Of a DNA stretch of 39,813 nucleotides, positions 3,310 through 39,813 are shown piece after piece. Both the position numbers and the translations under genes were made by a program. Source of the DNA: Candidatus Omnitrophota bacterium (GTDB taxonomy: Bacteria; Omnitrophota; Gorgyraeia; Zapsychrales; Zapsychraceae); the NCBI GenBank assembly GCA_023136835.1, contig JAGLQN010000002.1, positions 1 through 39,813 of the forward strand. Direction: 5' to 3'. Within the stretch, counting starts at the first letter, position 1; each line of letters opens with the position of its first letter. Under the pieces are notes generated by a model. It had not been told where the DNA came from. It worked only from the letters and a program-made list of their open reading frames with translations, and ran no database searches.

Positions 3310-4212
3310 TTATTCAACCAACGGGCGTATTTCGTCCCATTCTTGATATACTCTACTTAACATATCCTTCATTTCTCTTTCTTCTACTACTACTGCATCC
3401 CAGACCTCTTTATTAATATACTTATTGACCTCTCGTTTAATTTTAGATTCTAATATCGCCGGGTCAAGCGCGTCAAGCTCCCACGAAGTATATCCAAACC
3501 TTTTAATATATTCTTGAGCGCGGCTATCTGATATTTTTGTGGGGTTTGGTGGCGGTTGATATTCTTCCACCTGGTCCATATTAAGAGCAAGCCTTATTAC
3601 TTCTACCTCTTCCGGAAAACCCGTAAAAATATTTAGACGGTCGATATTGTCCCTTGTCATATCTATACCAGATGGGTCATGGTCTCCCAGGTGGATAAGT
3701 ATACACCTTTTACCCCCTACTATCTTGTTTCTAAAGCGCCGCCCCGACCGCCAAGCCTCCGAAGCTGACAAGTAACCCTTACAGGCCATGTGCGGTATTA
3801 GAAAAGGTTTACAGGCCCTTGATACAACATTTCCAAGCGCTTCTTTTTCAACCCAAACCTCAATGTAATATTCTTGACGCGCCCACCTATCAAAACGAAT
3901 GTAATCCGGGAGATCTTTTATAGGGCTTAACTCGTCCTCATCATACCAATATCCATGATGTTGCCGGTTACGATCTTCAATAGACGACCATGAGAGCATA
4001 CCGGACATGCGGGCTTTTGTAATAATTCGCCCCAGGTTCTTATAGCTCCTTTCTGAATTTGCGATTATACCCCTTGCAACAAACTGATAATAAAGCTGGC
4101 GGACCGTTAATATATATCCGGCCGTATCATATTCGCTAATTATGTCGTCGGCTTGATCTATTAAATCACGCGTTTTTTCTTTCGGCGACCATTCTATAAA
4201 TTTTTGCTTCAT
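3310..4212 (-). CDS. Spo11/topoisomerase VI subunit A-like protein
   Basis: 300 aa. The N-terminal part carries 'TVRQLYYQF' (36-44), matching the catalytic R-x3-Y-Y motif of the Spo11/TopoVI-A winged-helix domain (candidate tyrosines Y41/Y42). A TOPRIM domain follows, with the glutamate motif 'VWVEKEAL' (E122), a 'CKGYLSASEAWRS' segment as in TopoVI-A, and the metal-binding 'LGDHDPSGIDM' (D177, D179). Both halves needed for tyrosine-mediated DNA cleavage therefore appear intact. No TopoVI-B-like GHKL ATPase is encoded in this genome. Free-standing A-like proteins ('Mini-A') are known from mobile elements, with no settled function. GGGAGGG precedes ATG 4212. Cotranscribed with the PP-loop ATPase upstream. 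Confidence 0.8.
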   Translation of the reverse strand: MKQKFIEWSPKEKTRDLIDQADDIISEYDTAGYILTVRQLYYQFVARGIIANSERSYKNLGRIITKARMSGMLSWSSIEDRNRQHHGYWYDEDELSPIKDLPDYIRFDRWARQEYYIEVWVEKEALGNVVSRACKPFLIPHMACKGYLSASEAWRSGRRFRNKIVGGKRCILIHLGDHDPSGIDMTRDNIDRLNIFTGFPEEVEVIRLALNMDQVEEYQPPPNPTKISDSRAQEYIKRFGYTSWELDALDPAILESKIKREVNKYINKEVWDAVVVEEREMKDMLSRVYQEWDEIRPLVE

Positions 4213-4229: not shown

Positions 4230-5036
4230 TTATTCACACACACCCAGACCTGCATAGGCGCAAATAGTACTTTCTTGTTTTATCGTTCCTAACTCCATTT
4301 GACCGTCAAGCGTTTTTAGCGCCCAGGCTACATGCTGGTCAATGGTCCACACGATCGCCTCACCGGTGATCTTGTTAAATTTACGCCGTGGCAAATAAGA
4401 CAGGCCGGTTTGCTTCTCAACCTCTCTAATTTCGGCGATACGATCCGGGTAGTGCCGCGCTAATACTATCAACTCATTACGCCCGGCATTGACACACGGG
4501 AAGCAACCAACGCGTTTTAAGCCCTTCTTATAAAGCGGGTTTATATCGATCCTATATTTTTTATGTATTGCAAAAACTTCCGCGGCGGACCAGGTGATTA
4601 TCGGATTCCATAGTGGCCGCCCGTAGGTGCTTTTGTCTTCATGTTCTTTTCGTTTACTTCTTGCCTTTGATTCGGCCGCGCGTATCCCGGTTATTATGGT
4701 GCAATCATCAGCATAGGGTTGTTCTTCAAGCCACCGCAAAAACGGCACGATCTTTAACCACTCTGTACAAAAGCGCGCCTTCATTGACGGGAACCGCTTC
4801 TTCTTTATAGCCAACGAAAAAAAATCATATTCACCCTTCAACTTTATTACTTCCGTACCGGTCCACCCATTCAACAAACCCGATATATAATCAATATAAG
4901 CATAAGTATCCTTTGATTCGTTGCCGGTATCCTGGAACGTAACAATGGGTACAATGTTCTTTTCCTTAATCAAATATAGCAATGTCGCGGTGCTATCTTT
5001 GCCGCCGCTAAAACAAAGCACGTATTGATGTTTCAA
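4230..5036 (-). CDS. PP-loop ATPase, PAPS reductase/DndC-like
   Basis: 268 aa. It begins with the PP-loop 'LCFSGGKDST' (SGGKDS 10-15), which binds and adenylates or pyrophosphorylates substrates in the adenine nucleotide alpha-hydrolase superfamily. It continues with 'RFCTEWLK' (88-95, C90), 'GIRAAESKAR' (117-126) and 'RVGCFPC' (C178, C181), the arrangement of PAPS reductase-like and DndC-like proteins. Free PAPS reduction is unlikely in a phage. Sulfur activation or nucleotide modification is a possible role by analogy with DndC phosphorothioation, but DndD/DndE partners are not seen. The start is TTG 5036, with AGGGGG about 6 nt upstream. It sits between a radical SAM gene pair and a Spo11-like gene. 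Confidence 0.8.
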   Translation of the reverse strand: MKHQYVLCFSGGKDSTATLLYLIKEKNIVPIVTFQDTGNESKDTYAYIDYISGLLNGWTGTEVIKLKGEYDFFSLAIKKKRFPSMKARFCTEWLKIVPFLRWLEEQPYADDCTIITGIRAAESKARSKRKEHEDKSTYGRPLWNPIITWSAAEVFAIHKKYRIDINPLYKKGLKRVGCFPCVNAGRNELIVLARHYPDRIAEIREVEKQTGLSYLPRRKFNKITGEAIVWTIDQHVAWALKTLDGQMELGTIKQESTICAYAGLGVCE

Positions 5037-5045
5037 ATTAGCCCC

Positions 5046-5402
5046 CTAAAAAAAACTTAATTGACCGCCGGTGTGTATAATTATTTCGTCGTCATTATTG
5101 CCAAAAAGCTTTAATATCCTACCGTCAACGGCCACCAGTTCACTAAAACAACTATCGGTGTCAAAGTCCAGGTACATAGCCCCCAAACTATATGTTTTAT
5201 GCCCCATAACTTCATATTCCCCGATAGAAATAACCCTGTGCAACCGATCACTATAGCTAGTACTTATTATAGCCCCGGGACCTATCAACCCGGCAACGTC
5301 CGCCTGGTCTTCCGGGGTTTGTCTAAATATCATTCCCGGCGGAATCGGATAACCCAATTCGTGTTGACATGAATTATGCGCGTATTGTTTCCAGGCGCCC
5401 AT
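5046..5402 (-). CDS. Hypothetical protein between radical SAM and PP-loop genes
   Basis: 118 aa, no family recognised. The sequence is predicted mostly beta, with a hydrophobic core, two cysteines in the N-terminal half and C-terminal half ('NSCQHELG', 'DSCFSEL'), and an acidic 'GNNDDEIIIHTGG' near the end. Start chosen at ATG 5402 because it overlaps the TGA of the upstream gene and follows a run of seven G (positions 5409-5415). Translational coupling to the radical SAM gene suggests a shared task, possibly as a small subunit, which is inference. Confidence 0.7.
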   Translation of the reverse strand: MGAWKQYAHNSCQHELGYPIPPGMIFRQTPEDQADVAGLIGPGAIISTSYSDRLHRVISIGEYEVMGHKTYSLGAMYLDFDTDSCFSELVAVDGRILKLFGNNDDEIIIHTGGQLSFF

Positions 5403-6415
5403 CAAACGACCCCCCCGGCCTTCTTGTAGCCCCACACGTCATTTAATATTTTCAAGCGCTTTTGAAGGGTATCATCACGTAACCCGCGCTTAATCAGGAA
5501 TTCTTTAAACGTCATTTTTTTAAAAAACGACGGTTGATTGCACCAAGCGGCTAGGTCCGCATAAAAGCCTTTCTTTGTCGATTGATAACAATTATCATCA
5601 CGCATTAAATAAGGTAGGCATTTGTTTTTCTTGCACCAAGCTATCCTGGGGATCACGTCGGTTGACAGGTCCATTTCAGCGCTACAATAAATATAAAACC
5701 TAATATATATCGATTTAATGTATTTCAACAATATATCAAGCTTATCGTTAAGGACCTGCGCGCTTGATATGTTATCAAAGGCGAAAGTATAGGGCTTGAT
5801 ATAGTGTTTAATCCGCGACAATAGCCTTGCGTTCTCATCATCAACCAATCTAATATCTAGCCCCTGGCTAAATGAACATTTTATTTTCTTATCAATAAGG
5901 CGTTGCAATATTGCTTTATGATCTCGATATGCCAGAATATTATTGTCCAAAAATTCAACCCGGTCATGTTCTATTATTGAATCAAGATCGGTTTCTTTAT
6001 AAATGCGGCCCTCTTTTTCCGGCACGATACAAAACCCACAATTTCGTATACACCCCCGGGTAATAAACCCGTAAGACGTCCGGTTTTCCGGATAAATGCT
6101 GTAGTCCGGCGGGCAACAATCTATTTCCGGCGGCAACTTCTTTTTTATATCGTAACCCGATCCGCCGATATCAACATGATCACAACTCACGACCTTAATA
6201 ATGTCCCGGTTACATCTAAATATTACAGAAACAAACACCTTGTCATATTTCGCGGCGGTGATCGTTTTCCTACCCTTGCGCCCCCGGTTGTATCCGCTAA
6301 AACCAAACCGCCATAGGGTTATATTATGCCCGCGGTCCCGGTAATAAGTTGATATTTTCATGAGCGCTAAGTTTGGTATTTTACTATCCGCGTCTATTAA
6401 TAATATATTATCCAT
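5402..6415 (-). CDS. Radical SAM enzyme
   Basis: 337 aa. The N-terminal 70 residues have a B12-binding-like alpha/beta pattern ('ILLIDAD', 'ALMKISTYYRDRGHNITL') but lack the DxHxxG cobalamin motif. 'IGGSGYD' (83-89) and 'PDYSIYP' precede the radical SAM cluster motif C122-x3-C126-x2-C129 ('RGCIRNCGFCIVPEKEG'), which would hold a [4Fe-4S] cluster and cleave S-adenosylmethionine. This layout is seen in a recurrent group of phage and bacterial radical SAM proteins whose substrate is not known. The start at ATG 6415 follows AAAGG and avoids overlap with the gene before. It is translationally coupled to the next gene and followed by the PP-loop ATPase. Confidence 0.85.
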   Translation of the reverse strand: MDNILLIDADSKIPNLALMKISTYYRDRGHNITLWRFGFSGYNRGRKGRKTITAAKYDKVFVSVIFRCNRDIIKVVSCDHVDIGGSGYDIKKKLPPEIDCCPPDYSIYPENRTSYGFITRGCIRNCGFCIVPEKEGRIYKETDLDSIIEHDRVEFLDNNILAYRDHKAILQRLIDKKIKCSFSQGLDIRLVDDENARLLSRIKHYIKPYTFAFDNISSAQVLNDKLDILLKYIKSIYIRFYIYCSAEMDLSTDVIPRIAWCKKNKCLPYLMRDDNCYQSTKKGFYADLAAWCNQPSFFKKMTFKEFLIKRGLRDDTLQKRLKILNDVWGYKKAGGVV

Positions 6416-6653: not shown

Positions 6654-9548
6654 CTATCCCCACCCCGGGTTGTCGTCGTCTTCTTCGTCAGGGTCCGGCA
6701 TCTCCATTACGTTAAAATAATCCGGGTGCGTCCGTTCAAGTTCGCGTAAGAATTTAACAAACTTAGGTTGTTTTTGATAGCCATTTTTCCCGGATCGTAT
6801 CAAGTGATATTTCTTTAAAAAGCTAACCACCTTTTTGATCGTATCAAGCCCACAACCGACAAAATCCTTTAAATCATCACGCTTTATACTGGTACTAATT
6901 CGTAGATGATAAATCGTTTTAACAAAGAAGTTGCCCCTGTTTTTTTCTATTCCGGTCTTGCGCTTCTTCATAAATGCGGTTTCCAGTTCTTCAAAATTAA
7001 GCAGGTGGGTTTTAAGCTTGACGATCTCGGAATACTTATCTAATGACGCCGATTGGTGGCGATAAATACACCCGATAAAATCAATCGCGGCCTCAACATG
7101 TTCCTTTTTTACTGTCACCGTTTCAAAGTTTTCCGTTGACATAACTATAAAAGCAAGCGCGGTTGATATGCGCGCCAAATTATATCGAAAATCGGACGGG
7201 GCTACCAAAGGAATATCAACGGCGTTACCGAATTCCTTACTTAATATTAGCGCCTGGCTTAAACAATATTCCTCTGCTTCCGGATCAAAAAATATTTGAT
7301 CTTCGGTGCGGGTCCAGGCAAAGAAGACGGCCGAACGTAGCATTGAAGGGGTTATTTTTGGCAATTTTGTATTTTTTCGGTTCATCACGCTATAATCCAT
7401 CATATCACCGGAATTAGCGAAAACGGCAAAGTCAACGCGCCTTAATATTGTCGGCGGGTAGATCGTCTTTAGCGTTTCGCAACCATACATACATTCGTCC
7501 ATCACCCGATCGTATTTAGGGTTACACATCATCAACAATCTGGTCATAGAATCATAGCCCCGGGATTTCACCCGGTCAATTTGCATAAACCCTTCGTCCA
7601 TAGCTTTACTAATAGATTGAAGGTCGAATTCTTGAAGGTGTTGAACCTCGTCAACCGCTAAAAGCTTCCCTGAATTCGCCGGATAGCGTCCTATTTTTAT
7701 CTGCCAGCCGCCGCGCCGGTGATCCTCAACTAAAGCGTATGAAAGGCCCGTGCGGGACCCGGTAAGGCACGAAAAGAAGTCACCGGCCCCGATATAATCT
7801 GATATACGGTTATAGGTCTGCGTCTTACCTAGTCCACTATCGCCTATTATTATCGATAGAATCCAACCGCGGATTCGGTTCTTGTTAAAGTTTATCCATA
7901 GCGGCGAAAAGAACGTAAGAAGGACCGCCATTAATAATTCGTCGCGTTCATATATATTAGTGACGCCGTTTGTTAGGTCCTCGATAATTTCCGGTAAAGA
8001 AAATTTTTGATAGGCTTTAAGGTGTTCAATTTCCTTTGTTACATCAAAAGATTGATAGTCGTCTTCTTGCGGTATAAGGGTTTCAATTAAAAAGGTGATA
8101 GCTTGCGTTTTCGGGTGCGCTTTCGCGTAACCGGTAGCCAAATACGAACCAGGCGGCGCGTCATTAGATGATATATAATAACATTTCTTTTCAACTAATT
8201 CCTGCATTTTGCCGCCGGATTTTGACCGCTTAATAGTTTGGTGTGCAAAGAATTCCTGGACCGTTACCCGGCGCGTTATTTTTATTGTCGGCTTTTTATC
8301 AAATTTGCAACAATATGATCTTAACATTCCGACGACCTGGGGATTCGTTGACATGCACGATCCGATATATTCTTGCTCTGATATCGGGATTGTGATAGGC
8401 CGGATACACCTAGAACATTTGCTATCCTCACGGGTCTTGCAATGGTCAACCTCAAACTCGGATACCGCATAAAATGAATCGGACGTTTCCCCGGACACGA
8501 CGATTTCGCATTGTATTCTTTGATCGACGTGTTTATGGTCCTCGATCTCAACAAAGGATTCTAGTACCGTGATCGGGTCGGTGGACCCTTCAAGCTCATA
8601 CTCGTAAGCGTGTACCGGCGTTTCGTCTATAAGGGTCCTTAAATCTTTAGCAGTAAAGCCGTGTGCGTGGAAATAATCGGTTATATCGTTGTCTTTTGAA
8701 GTGCCTTCAAGCGGCAACAATATATTCTTTATTGATCGCACGCCGCTATTTTCAAACATCGGCAACAAAAGCCCTTTAGCGGCTACCTGGCCGCCGTCGT
8801 CACAATCTTGCAATATAACCACGTCTTTACCCTTAAAAAAGCGGACCCATTCCGCCAAGAAGCTTTTACAGCCGTTTGTTGTCGTGACAGCCATAAAACC
8901 GTTTTGTTGCAATAGAAGACGGTCAAATTCACCCTCACAAATAATAACTTCATGTTCTTTATATTTTACTAGTTCGTCAAGCCCATAAAGGCGCGCCGGT
9001 GATCCATAAGTATAATCTTTACCCTTAACCCTTTGATTATAGGGCATCATTTTCCAGCGGCCTTTCTTTGCGTTGTATCGGCGTATGTTTACTAGTTTGC
9101 CGTTTTCGTCGCGAATCGGAATTGTATTACGGCCGCCCGGTAGGTCCGGGTCCCAACCTATCTCATATTGCTTGATTGTGTCGATAGTCAAACCGCGCTT
9201 TTCATATAAATATTGTACCGCCTGGTCGTTTAATTGTTCTGTACATTTTTTCACGTAACCCTCGGGTATCGGCGGCTTTGCCGGTTCCGCGGGCGCGGCC
9301 TTCTTCTTTGCCTTCTTCGCGGGCGTCTTCTTTTTTGATTCTTTATTACGATCCGCGGCCGCCGGGTCGTACAGCTCAAGAAATTGTTGATAATTGCCTT
9401 TGCCGCATTGAGAAAAACACACCCAGGCGCCCGTTTCAGGGTCGTATGAAAAAGAAGGGCTTTTATCGTCGTGAATCGGGCAACACCCTTTTATCCAGCC
9501 GTTTGTGTCTCTTGATTCTTTATGTAATTTAGGAAAATCATAGCTCAT
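6654..9548 (-). CDS. DnaG-type primase fused to MCM-like AAA+ helicase
   Basis: 964 aa. A CHC2-type zinc finger ('CCPIHDDKSPSF', C23, H26, C44, C48) is followed by a Lys/Ala/Pro linker (70-95), a primase core and TOPRIM domain ('ICEGEFD' E206; 'LQDCDDGG' D248/D250), a cysteine-bearing insert (370-415), then an AAA+ domain. That domain has Walker A 'GDSGLGKTQ' (569-577), Walker B 'LLAVDE' (629-634), sensor 1 N676 in 'MMCNPKYD', arginine finger in 'ILRRVDF' (R703/R704) and an 'FRYNLARISTALAF' lid helix (787-800). 'LTGSRTGLSYAL' and 'AMDEGFMQIDR' match MCM-specific stretches rather than DnaB/gp4. A winged helix ends the protein (about 870-935). It should prime and unwind phage DNA. GGAG precedes ATG 9548. 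Confidence 0.85.
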   Translation of the reverse strand: MSYDFPKLHKESRDTNGWIKGCCPIHDDKSPSFSYDPETGAWVCFSQCGKGNYQQFLELYDPAAADRNKESKKKTPAKKAKKKAAPAEPAKPPIPEGYVKKCTEQLNDQAVQYLYEKRGLTIDTIKQYEIGWDPDLPGGRNTIPIRDENGKLVNIRRYNAKKGRWKMMPYNQRVKGKDYTYGSPARLYGLDELVKYKEHEVIICEGEFDRLLLQQNGFMAVTTTNGCKSFLAEWVRFFKGKDVVILQDCDDGGQVAAKGLLLPMFENSGVRSIKNILLPLEGTSKDNDITDYFHAHGFTAKDLRTLIDETPVHAYEYELEGSTDPITVLESFVEIEDHKHVDQRIQCEIVVSGETSDSFYAVSEFEVDHCKTREDSKCSRCIRPITIPISEQEYIGSCMSTNPQVVGMLRSYCCKFDKKPTIKITRRVTVQEFFAHQTIKRSKSGGKMQELVEKKCYYISSNDAPPGSYLATGYAKAHPKTQAITFLIETLIPQEDDYQSFDVTKEIEHLKAYQKFSLPEIIEDLTNGVTNIYERDELLMAVLLTFFSPLWINFNKNRIRGWILSIIIGDSGLGKTQTYNRISDYIGAGDFFSCLTGSRTGLSYALVEDHRRGGWQIKIGRYPANSGKLLAVDEVQHLQEFDLQSISKAMDEGFMQIDRVKSRGYDSMTRLLMMCNPKYDRVMDECMYGCETLKTIYPPTILRRVDFAVFANSGDMMDYSVMNRKNTKLPKITPSMLRSAVFFAWTRTEDQIFFDPEAEEYCLSQALILSKEFGNAVDIPLVAPSDFRYNLARISTALAFIVMSTENFETVTVKKEHVEAAIDFIGCIYRHQSASLDKYSEIVKLKTHLLNFEELETAFMKKRKTGIEKNRGNFFVKTIYHLRISTSIKRDDLKDFVGCGLDTIKKVVSFLKKYHLIRSGKNGYQKQPKFVKFLRELERTHPDYFNVMEMPDPDEEDDDNPGWG

Positions 9549-10077: not shown

Positions 10078-10441
10078 CTTTAAGCCCCTTAAAATTCAAC
10101 ATTCCAACGCATTTTTTTAATGTTTGCACGATCCGGCCATAAAGAAACAATCTTTCGGTGCGCCGCTTTTGTAGTTCGTTTTCCACATTTGCCGCGCGCT
10201 TAATTAATACTTTAAGGTCTTTATCGGGGATATTTTCCAGGTCATATATTATTCCGCCCGGGGCGTCTCTGTTATCAACAATCAGAATAGAAGATGTTTT
10301 TTCACCTGGGGCCACCAACTTAACAATAAGTTCTAAACCTGCCGGGTGTAATACCCGCCGGTTCAATTCTTGTAAAAATCCGGAATCGATAAATTCCAAT
10401 ATGTCCATTAGTTTTTTCAGGTCTTTAGGCTTCTCTTGCAT
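10052..10441 (-). CDS. Conserved-type small phage protein
   Basis: 129 aa. 'FIDSGFLQELNRRVLHPAGLE' (about 17-37) followed by 'ILIVDNRDAPGGIIYDLE' resembles a widespread family of short phage proteins of unknown role that carry an 'LQE.NR..LHP.GL.L' motif. The C-terminal half is helical and Arg/Lys-rich. GGGGGG lies about 9 nt before ATG 10441, and the gene overlaps its neighbours on both sides (10425, 10077), as expected within a compact early operon. Confidence 0.7.
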   Translation of the reverse strand: MQEKPKDLKKLMDILEFIDSGFLQELNRRVLHPAGLELIVKLVAPGEKTSSILIVDNRDAPGGIIYDLENIPDKDLKVLIKRAANVENELQKRRTERLFLYGRIVQTLKKCVGMLNFKGLKDEKEPDNK

Positions 10442-10913
10442 AATAATATCCCCCCTGTTTTGATTTTGTGCGTTTCAAAGGCTCCAACCAGGCCCGGGTC
10501 CCATCAATCAAAGTAACCGGCCGCCAAGCAAAACACAATTCCCATAGTCGATATTTCGTTGCTAACCTAATTTCCACGTCTTTGTCGGTGATAAGGTTTG
10601 ACCAATCTATCCGCCGGATCGTCTTGTTTAGTTCGATAGCGCGGGCCTCTTCACGCCTCATACCGGCCGACAAACCATCATGTACAAATATCCATACCTC
10701 ATCACATAAGGGCATAAATTTAAGGCCCCAGGCTATCCCGCGGTCCCTTTGATTCGGATCGAATTCATTCATAAATTGCGGGAAATAGACGTGCGGGGCA
10801 AACGGTAAATAATAATATTCGTACGCGACCTTTTCACATATCAATTCCGCAAGCGCCAGGTTATCATCATCACCGCCAAACGGTGAACATACAAAGATCG
10901 TCTTATTTGTCAT
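10425..10913 (-). CDS. Nucleoside 2-deoxyribosyltransferase-fold protein (DUF4406/DUF7768-like)
   Basis: 162 aa. The opening 'IFVCSPFGGD' (6-15), central 'PFAPHVYFPQF' and 'CDEVWIFVHDGLSAGMRREEA' match the phosphate/ribose pocket pattern of the nucleoside deoxyribosyltransferase-like phage proteins. The S-x-GM-xx-E stretch holds the expected catalytic glutamate region. These enzymes swap or hydrolyse the base of deoxynucleosides; in phages they may adjust nucleotide pools or degrade nucleotides, and the substrate here is unknown. GGGAG precedes ATG 10913, which overlaps the HTH gene's end. Confidence 0.7.
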   Translation of the reverse strand: MTNKTIFVCSPFGGDDDNLALAELICEKVAYEYYYLPFAPHVYFPQFMNEFDPNQRDRGIAWGLKFMPLCDEVWIFVHDGLSAGMRREEARAIELNKTIRRIDWSNLITDKDVEIRLATKYRLWELCFAWRPVTLIDGTRAWLEPLKRTKSKQGGYYYAREA

Positions 10914-12074: not shown

Positions 12075-12923
12075 TTATAGCCTTCTTGACGTTGGTTTAT
12101 CGCCCGGTTCCGAGGCGCCGAATTCTTGACCGTATTCTAGCTTAAATTTATCTTTACTAGATAATATTTCACCCGGATATTGCATAAATATTTCACCGCG
12201 TAAAACGTTGCCGCCCTTCTTAGGTCCACGGCCGCCCACTTGCTTAAAGAAAAACGGTATTTTCTGTGCTTCGCAAAAGGCCCGGATTTTATCGGCCCAA
12301 ATTGGTTGCATGGCCCGCGGATTGTTGCCGGATTCTCCGCCCGCTATTACCCAACCTATATGGTCGTTTATTAAAGAAAAGAAACGCACCTGTTCATTAT
12401 ATCTAGTTTTTGTTTTATATCGATCCCCGAAAATATCCTCTAATAAAGGTTCAAACGATATATATTTCATATTAGCATCAACACAATGCGCTAATAATTC
12501 TACCCGGGAAGCATATTTAAGGGCTTCAACGCTCACACCGGCCCAAAGATTAGCGGTCCACAACAACTTGTCGTTTAAAGCCGCCATGCGTTCCGGGCGC
12601 TTAGTCAACACCTGAAAGGTATGTTGCGGGCATTTATTCATTACCGTGAAAACCTCAAACATAAACTCGTCCGGGACGTCCGGGTGAAATAAATCAGACA
12701 TTGAGTTTACAAACACCCGGCGCGGCTTCAACCACGTATAAGGCGCCTTTAATCGCTTCGGGTGACACTTCACCTTAAAACCTTTTTCGTATCCCGGGAT
12801 ACCCCGCTTTTGAAATTTAAGCGCGATAGGTTCCGCGTAGCAATTATTACAGCCCGCGGAATATTTAGTACACCCGGTTACCGGGTTCCACGTTTCATCG
12901 GTCCAGCCAATTTTAGTTGTCAT
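12075..12923 (-). CDS. DUF5131 (phage Gp37/Gp68) radical-SAM-like protein
   Basis: 282 aa. The signature 'IGWTDETWNPVTGC' opens the protein, followed by C18-x6-C25-x2-C28 ('GCTKYSAGCNNCYAE'), a cysteine motif that would hold a [4Fe-4S] cluster. Further conserved stretches are 'VFVNSMSDLFHP', 'QVLTKRPERM', 'WAGVSVE', 'ISFEPLL' and 'WVIAGGESG'. These identify the DUF5131/Gp37-Gp68 family, common in phages and plasmids, with a TIM-barrel radical-SAM-like build and unproven substrate. GAGGG precedes ATG 12923. With the gene at 5402-6415 this makes two radical-SAM-type proteins in one early operon. Confidence 0.88.
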   Translation of the reverse strand: MTTKIGWTDETWNPVTGCTKYSAGCNNCYAEPIALKFQKRGIPGYEKGFKVKCHPKRLKAPYTWLKPRRVFVNSMSDLFHPDVPDEFMFEVFTVMNKCPQHTFQVLTKRPERMAALNDKLLWTANLWAGVSVEALKYASRVELLAHCVDANMKYISFEPLLEDIFGDRYKTKTRYNEQVRFFSLINDHIGWVIAGGESGNNPRAMQPIWADKIRAFCEAQKIPFFFKQVGGRGPKKGGNVLRGEIFMQYPGEILSSKDKFKLEYGQEFGASEPGDKPTSRRL

Positions 12924-13765: not shown

Positions 13766-14218
13766 TTATCCATACAAACAATCTTTCCCGTTAAGGTGAT
13801 CCATTTCGTGTTGAATTATCCTAGCTTCAAGCCCCCTAAACACCTTTCTGCAAGTTTTGCCTTTACAGTTCTGCCATTGCAACAATACGGAATCGCACCG
13901 GCCACGGATTTTTTCAACACCCGGGCGGCTTAAACAACCCTCGTTATCTTTAACTATCGTGGTGCTTTTTTTAAGGATCACCGGGTTAATAAATTCGCGG
14001 CGACGCTTTTCACCTTTCATAACAAAAATGCGATACGCGATATCGATTTGAACACCGGCAAGTCCTACGCCGGTTTCGTGCGCGTCTAAGGAGTCCCATA
14101 GGTCCTCAAGGATATAATCCAGGTAAACATCACTATTAAAATCAAACTTGACCGACGCTTTAGCGAGTGCCTTTGATCCTTCCGAATCTTCGTATTGTAC
14201 TATTTGACGGATTGCCAT
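13766..14218 (-). CDS. def: Peptide deformylase
   Basis: 150 aa, shorter than most bacterial enzymes (about 165-190) and like phage forms that lack the C-terminal helix. All three metalloprotease motifs are present: motif 1 'GVGLAGVQ' (50-57; the usual AA is AG here), motif 2 'EGCLS' (93-97, metal ligand C95) and motif 3 'QHEMDH' (136-141, ligands H137 and H141, catalytic E138). It removes the formyl group from nascent N-terminal methionine; phage versions are thought to speed maturation of phage-made proteins. It is the first gene of the early unit. The start is ATG 14218, with GGGAGGG 9 nt upstream. Confidence 0.93.
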   Translation of the reverse strand: MAIRQIVQYEDSEGSKALAKASVKFDFNSDVYLDYILEDLWDSLDAHETGVGLAGVQIDIAYRIFVMKGEKRRREFINPVILKKSTTIVKDNEGCLSRPGVEKIRGRCDSVLLQWQNCKGKTCRKVFRGLEARIIQHEMDHLNGKDCLYG

Positions 14219-14261
14219 TGGTTGTATCCCTCCCGAAAAGGTTAATATGTTATATCTAACT

Positions 14262-14283
14262 TTATATATAACATTATATATAA
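14262..14283. promoter_or_regulatory. Tandem TTATATATAA palindromes (candidate operator)
   Basis: Two identical 10-bp perfect palindromes, 14262-14271 and 14274-14283, are separated by 2 bp, giving a 12-bp period on one DNA face. They occupy the spacer and -10 region of the promoter at 14263-14292. A looser GTTA-N12-TAAC inverted repeat follows at 14241-14260. The placement suits a dimeric repressor blocking RNA polymerase; the small HTH protein at 10903-11103 is a candidate ligand. AT-rich melting DNA alone could explain part of the pattern. Confidence 0.5.
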
Positions 14284-14292
14284 CGGTGTCAA
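14263..14292 (-). promoter_or_regulatory. Early-operon sigma70-type promoter
   Basis: Perfect -35 TTGACA (minus strand, 14292-14287), followed by TATATA at either 16 or 18 bp spacing. It lies directly downstream of the late terminator (14303-14333) and about 45 to 70 bases ahead of the deformylase start. No other comparable promoter is seen between here and 1780, so it probably drives the whole early unit. Confidence 0.7.
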
Positions 14293-14302
14293 GAAATAAA
14301 AT

Positions 14303-14333
14303 AAAAAAAGGGCAACTTTTTTCAAAGCCGCCC
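14303..14333 (-). terminator. Intrinsic terminator of the late operon
   Basis: On the minus strand a 10-bp stem (GGGCGGCTTT / AAAGTTGCCC with two G-T pairs) closed by a GAAA tetraloop (14310-14333) is followed by seven T (14309-14303). It lies 29 bases beyond the stop of the last structural gene and immediately before the early promoter, so it insulates early from late transcription. Confidence 0.92.
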
Positions 14334-14361
14334 ATTTAATCTCATAAACTTTTGGAGGAAG

Positions 14362-39801: not shown

Positions 39802-39813
39802 CTACTTTGTGCC
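39802..39813. repeat. 12-bp terminal direct repeat, right copy
   Basis: Identical to bases 1-12. See the left copy. Its inner flank, tcggg, supplies the left arm of the dyad that appears when the two ends are joined. Confidence 0.6.

Follow-up and report, generated by a model that had tools for sequence, protein, structure and literature searches.

A phage radical SAM protein and a recurrent PP-loop ATPase neighbour as candidate nucleic-acid modification enzymes

Phages evade restriction by means of chemical marks on their DNA, and most of the known marks have been traced from odd gene clusters. A short gene run in DNA assembled for Candidatus Omnitrophota, in which a radical SAM gene is followed by an orphan and by a gene for a PP-loop ATPase, raises the question of whether these genes form a nucleic-acid modification cassette, as a sequence-only reading of this DNA had proposed.

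The gene run and the phage that carries it

The window, that is, the whole stretch of 39,813 nucleotides analysed, is a phage contig binned with a 3.17 Mb assembly. Nearly all its genes are on the minus strand, including those for terminase, portal, major head protein, tape measure, lysis and a primase-helicase. Its two ends (positions 1-12 and 39802-39813) are identical over 12 bases (CTACTTTGTGCC), a string that does not recur in the window even when one mismatch is allowed; thus, the contig is probably circular and would correspond to an essentially complete genome. The genes concerned, together with the next one downstream, are the following:

6415..5402, minus strand: radical SAM protein (phrog_9298), 337 aa, ATG start, with a Rossmann-like N-terminal domain and a CxxxCxxC-IVPEKEG core
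5402..5046, minus strand: orphan protein, 118 aa, whose ATG overlaps the radical SAM stop by one base (TGATG)
5036..4230, minus strand: PP-loop ATPase of the PAPS-reductase/DndC/SspD superfamily, 268 aa, TTG start, with SGGKDS
3310..4212, minus strand: Topo6A/Spo11-like protein (phrog_6247, labelled DNA topoisomerase), next gene downstream of the PP-loop gene

The limits given by the sequence-only reading and its gap of nine bases before a DndC/PAPS-reductase-like ATPase were exact, and the coupling that it described between the first two genes corresponds to the one-base overlap. The latter gene starts with TTG, not ATG, nine bases past the stop of the 118-aa gene, and is preceded by AGGGGG. 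Judged by codon usage relative to the other phage genes, all three frames are coding: when the score of each own frame was compared with those of the other five frames and of 500 shuffles, the own frame was the highest in every case (for the 118-aa gene, 0.113 versus at most 0.023 in the other frames and 0.013 in the shuffles).

The 118-aa protein had no match in four libraries, in the viral contigs or in the 31 further genomes available for the host family. Its faint resemblance (E 1-9) to proteins of Felix O1-like phages was not accepted as homology, and its single-sequence AF2 model (pLDDT 35) was unusable.

Other genes of this phage include one at 6654-9548 (minus strand) for a 964-aa protein, in which a DnaG-type zinc finger and a Toprim primase are fused to an MCM/AAA+ helicase, and a phage-encoded peptide deformylase (13766-14335, minus strand; phrog_2890). 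Single-protein scans of the viral contigs gave no close relative of the primase-helicase fusion and one relative of the terminase.

Families, motifs and predicted fold of the two enzymes

The radical SAM protein gave a full-length profile match to phrog_9298 (E 2.3e-65, residues 3-317 of 337), a family without assigned function whose conserved core it shares with no difference, while Pfam Radical_SAM by itself gives a poor match (E 0.0075). This family is present in hundreds of viral contigs. When 22 viral relatives were aligned, 29 columns were invariant, and the only invariant cysteines were the three of the core, corresponding to C122, C126 and C129 in the CxxxCxxC motif, directly after which the IVPEKEG stretch is conserved.

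A fold search against the PDB with the AF2 model of this protein (pLDDT 87) gave MgmA (9ccb), a methyl-coenzyme M reductase glutamine C-methyltransferase, as the only significant match (E 9e-6, TM 0.54 by query). Both proteins appear to have a Rossmann-like N-terminal domain and a radical SAM core in common, although the phage protein is shorter, identity over the fold alignment is 12%, and its sequence score is 20 against a 360-bit cut-off. Class B (B12-dependent) radical SAM enzymes are characterised by a cobalamin-binding Rossmann domain before the core, and what bears on such an arrangement here is the predicted fold match to MgmA, at this TM of 0.54, cobalamin binding by the phage protein being hypothetical. 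A MiaB/RimO methylthiotransferase was also considered and rejected, the three N-terminal cysteines of the auxiliary cluster not being conserved and the TIGR00089 score being 17 versus 251 bits.

The PP-loop protein matches PF01507 (E 4e-25) and phrog_424 (E 1e-51), and is therefore a member of the phage 'PAPS reductases', similar proteins being encoded by many phages. In the window, its gene and a radical SAM gene belong to the same run, with the orphan in between. A single-protein scan of the viral contigs gave no viral relatives of this protein. Together with SGGKDS, its sequence contains C90, C178-x2-C181 and the C-terminal C259 and C267. Taking into account that a three-cysteine Fe-S site has been described for DndC (PMC10853773), such a site is plausible in the phage protein, in which C90, C178 and C181 would fit it. 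Thus, the PP-loop with SGGKDS and three conserved cysteines compatible with an Fe-S site would be shared with the SspD/DndC sulfurtransferases.

Recurrent pairing and genomic company

The radical SAM family was surveyed in phage records, viral contigs and genomes, giving 140 loci that form 121 clusters at 85% identity; flanks reached up to about 8 kb and were often shortened by contig ends, gene calls in the relatives were mechanical, and the collections are biased. PP-loop relatives were gathered with a tighter alignment, the first one being too diverse for scanning. Within these flanks, 19 of the 121 clusters have a PP-loop gene. The two genes directly adjoin each other in 8 of these 19 loci, versus 1.7 expected under random placement within loci (p ~1e-4, or 5e-4 once one related cluster is left out). 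The two genes are on the same strand in 19/19 loci, often overlapping or separated by 20 bases or fewer, and their order varies, with the PP-loop gene upstream in seven of the eight adjacent cases. Carriers of both genes include phages of Lachnospiraceae and of Bacteroides, among the latter BI-TP1 and BKO1-TP3, and the LoVEphage group. The proposed cassette has consequently to be reduced: the two enzymes recur together, and a conserved three-gene unit was rejected because the 118-aa gene has no relative in any of the collections searched and the order is variable.

A quick maximum-likelihood tree was built from 116 proteins of the radical SAM family. When the presence of a PP-loop gene within 800 bases is taken as a label (12 rows), the tree requires 12 changes of this label, and strongly supported branches make at least 10 of these unavoidable. 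Thus, the association is convergent, not inherited. Among the papers searched, none describes a radical SAM/PP-loop pair.

The strongest rival to a functional pairing is that phages insert independent accessory genes into one early DNA-metabolism slot next to methyltransferases, where the two would meet, an explanation that we consider somewhat unlikely. It draws on the fact that a PP-loop gene is missing from the flank in 102/121 clusters, among which are all the nearest relatives of the window's protein except one (L120, where the PP-loop gene is 7.5 kb from the radical SAM gene), so that in most phages this enzyme has to function without the ATPase. Moreover, most PP-loop genes have no radical SAM gene, the closest radical SAM relatives all have different neighbours, and the PP-loop proteins of the pairs differ widely in sequence, with 22-34% identity to that of the window. 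A shared slot, however, would be expected to give a broader enrichment than the one found, which is sharpest at the immediate neighbour: the PP-loop gene occupies 6/237 of these slots and 1/439 at distances 3-4, and its frequency per slot at distance 1 is 6.8-fold that over distances 3-15 (p 0.0015). Several of the pairs also overlap by 1-4 bases. In the reverse search, which started from one PP-loop subfamily (33 clusters), a radical SAM gene was present in three clusters, always two or fewer genes away, and in none of 379 farther slots. This steep fall beyond the nearest neighbours, together with the overlapping frames, favours a functional pairing over a slot effect, while the frequent absence of one partner indicates that each enzyme can act alone.

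Self-marking for the neighbouring Spo11-like enzyme, which had also been suggested, found no support among relatives, since the radical SAM gene is present in 0/22 loci of phrog_6247 relatives and, conversely, no phrog_6247 relative was found in the loci of the radical SAM family. In the absence of mutual co-occurrence, the Spo11-like gene was rejected as part of the pair.

With respect to the genes that surround both partners, C5 DNA methyltransferases are enriched 7.7-fold in the positions adjoining the radical SAM gene (p 2e-5) and N4/N6 methyltransferases 2.6-fold (p 0.01). A DNA methyltransferase is present within the locus in 58/121 radical SAM clusters and in 17/66 slots adjoining PP-loop genes; none was recognised in the phage of the window. 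This company, kept by both genes, is the main evidence, of a contextual kind, that points to a role on nucleic acid, probably DNA, although the clustering could also reflect a common site for accessory genes and not a common chemistry.

Alternatively, the pair could modify host tRNA, rRNA or protein, for example to sustain translation or to counter a defence aimed at anticodons. Modification of tRNA is a classic activity of both radical SAM and PP-loop enzymes, the BFVD fold matches of the radical SAM protein include a viral tRNA methylthiotransferase, a tRNA splicing ligase is annotated near the LoVEphage pair, and this phage encodes a peptide deformylase. Furthermore, the substrate of MgmA, the solved structure closest in fold, is a protein (PMC11796369). 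However, the radical SAM neighbourhoods consist mostly of DNA methyltransferases, ParB domains, helicases, primases and endonuclease I, not of tRNA genes, and the lack of the conserved MiaB/RimO auxiliary-cluster cysteines also argues against it; we consider such a target unlikely.

Some additional genes of these loci have to be mentioned. In seven clusters, a PD-(D/E)xK/endonuclease-I-like gene is directly downstream of the radical SAM gene, a placement that looks like the property of one phage lineage and not a general one. In the locus L013 (8876-9310), a 144-aa gene of this type, similar to T7 endonuclease I, overlaps or directly follows the radical SAM end, and homologues with the same placement are present in L012, L019, L020, L024, L027, L028, L030 and L031; a modification-nuclease pair is possible in this case. 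The window itself contains, at 12075-12923 (minus strand), a member of the DUF5131/Gp37-Gp68 family (PF07505, E 1e-81) with a CX6CX2C motif, which is a PADLOC candidate (PDC-M41B/M30B) and possibly a second radical-SAM-like phage protein. At 10425-10913 (minus strand) there is a nucleoside 2-deoxyribosyltransferase-like DUF7768 (PF24963; phrog_355), possibly a base- or nucleotide-processing enzyme. DUF5131 is present in nine loci of the radical SAM family, never adjoining, and DUF7768 in one.

Known systems and a possible anti-restriction role

The combination of the PP-loop enzyme QueC with the radical SAM enzyme QueE, which belongs to 7-deazaguanine synthesis, is known in phages. Nevertheless, this DNA pathway (dPreQ0/dADG) fails here: the PP-loop protein is below the QueC cut-off (Pfam E 0.014; 17 versus 150 bits), the radical SAM protein has no QueE match, and no DpdA/TGT, FolE or QueD was recognised among the phage proteins scanned. 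The IbrA/IbrB pair fails as well, no ParB domain, as the IbrB partner, being present among these proteins.

A reduced phosphorothioate (Dnd/Ssp) system is very improbable. In PADLOC, the best defence model for the PP-loop protein is SspD (E 9e-27, a model without curated cut-off), followed by DndC (E 2e-8), whereas its DndC equivalog score is 26.6 versus a cut-off of 290.4 bits, and neither DndB/D/E nor SspB/C-like partners were recognised among the phage proteins scanned. DndE was not found in the host genome by a search without positive control. Phosphorothioate DNA, which the sequence-only reading had contemplated, is thus not favoured. Likewise, it is highly improbable that the PP-loop gene serves sulfate assimilation as an auxiliary metabolic gene (CysH) and follows the radical SAM gene by accident, although phage cysH-like genes are commonly annotated in this way (PMC9301287) and the Pfam name is PAPS_reduct. 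The ECGxH motif of CysH is absent from the window's protein and from all 20 phage PP-loop proteins examined, the curated cysH score of the window's protein is 41 versus 165.1 bits, and SspD matches better. Overall, sequence and predicted fold exclude or disfavour Dnd/Ssp, 7-deazaguanine, MiaB-type methylthiolation and sulfate assimilation.

Taking all this into account, our preferred reading, to which we assign a probability of roughly 0.4, is that the radical SAM and PP-loop proteins serve the phage as accessory enzymes of nucleic-acid modification, acting most likely on its own DNA, as a protection against host restriction. The pairing beyond chance of the two enzymes and their methyltransferase neighbours make a modification or anti-restriction role reasonable, including the protection from host nucleases that had been proposed. 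The genes, their families and motifs, the predicted fold, the repeated pairing and the methyltransferase neighbours are established here, and from them we infer a joint action of the two enzymes, on DNA and for anti-restriction, as well as their chemistry. As for the possible mechanism, the PP-loop enzyme would adenylate or thiolate a position through its SGGKDS loop and its cysteine/Fe-S site, with sulfur that may be drawn from a host cysteine desulfurase, a family of which a member is encoded in the host genome. The radical SAM enzyme, with its B12-methylase-like predicted fold, would carry out a C-methylation or another radical step at the same or a second site, and the 118-aa protein could perhaps be a phage-specific helper.

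A more specific proposal, rather unlikely as formulated, is that the B12-methylase-like radical SAM protein and the DndC/SspD-like PP-loop protein constitute a convergent pathway for an undescribed sulfur- and/or carbon-based modification of phage DNA, which would have been recruited at least 10 times, either in place of DNA methyltransferases or alongside them.

In sum, an unassigned radical SAM family that recurs with a sulfur-type PP-loop ATPase beside methyltransferases offers a lead to a new nucleic-acid modification. Relatives are encoded by phages whose Bacteroides hosts are named (BI-TP1, BKO1-TP3 and PV4-TP1), which makes the modification idea testable.
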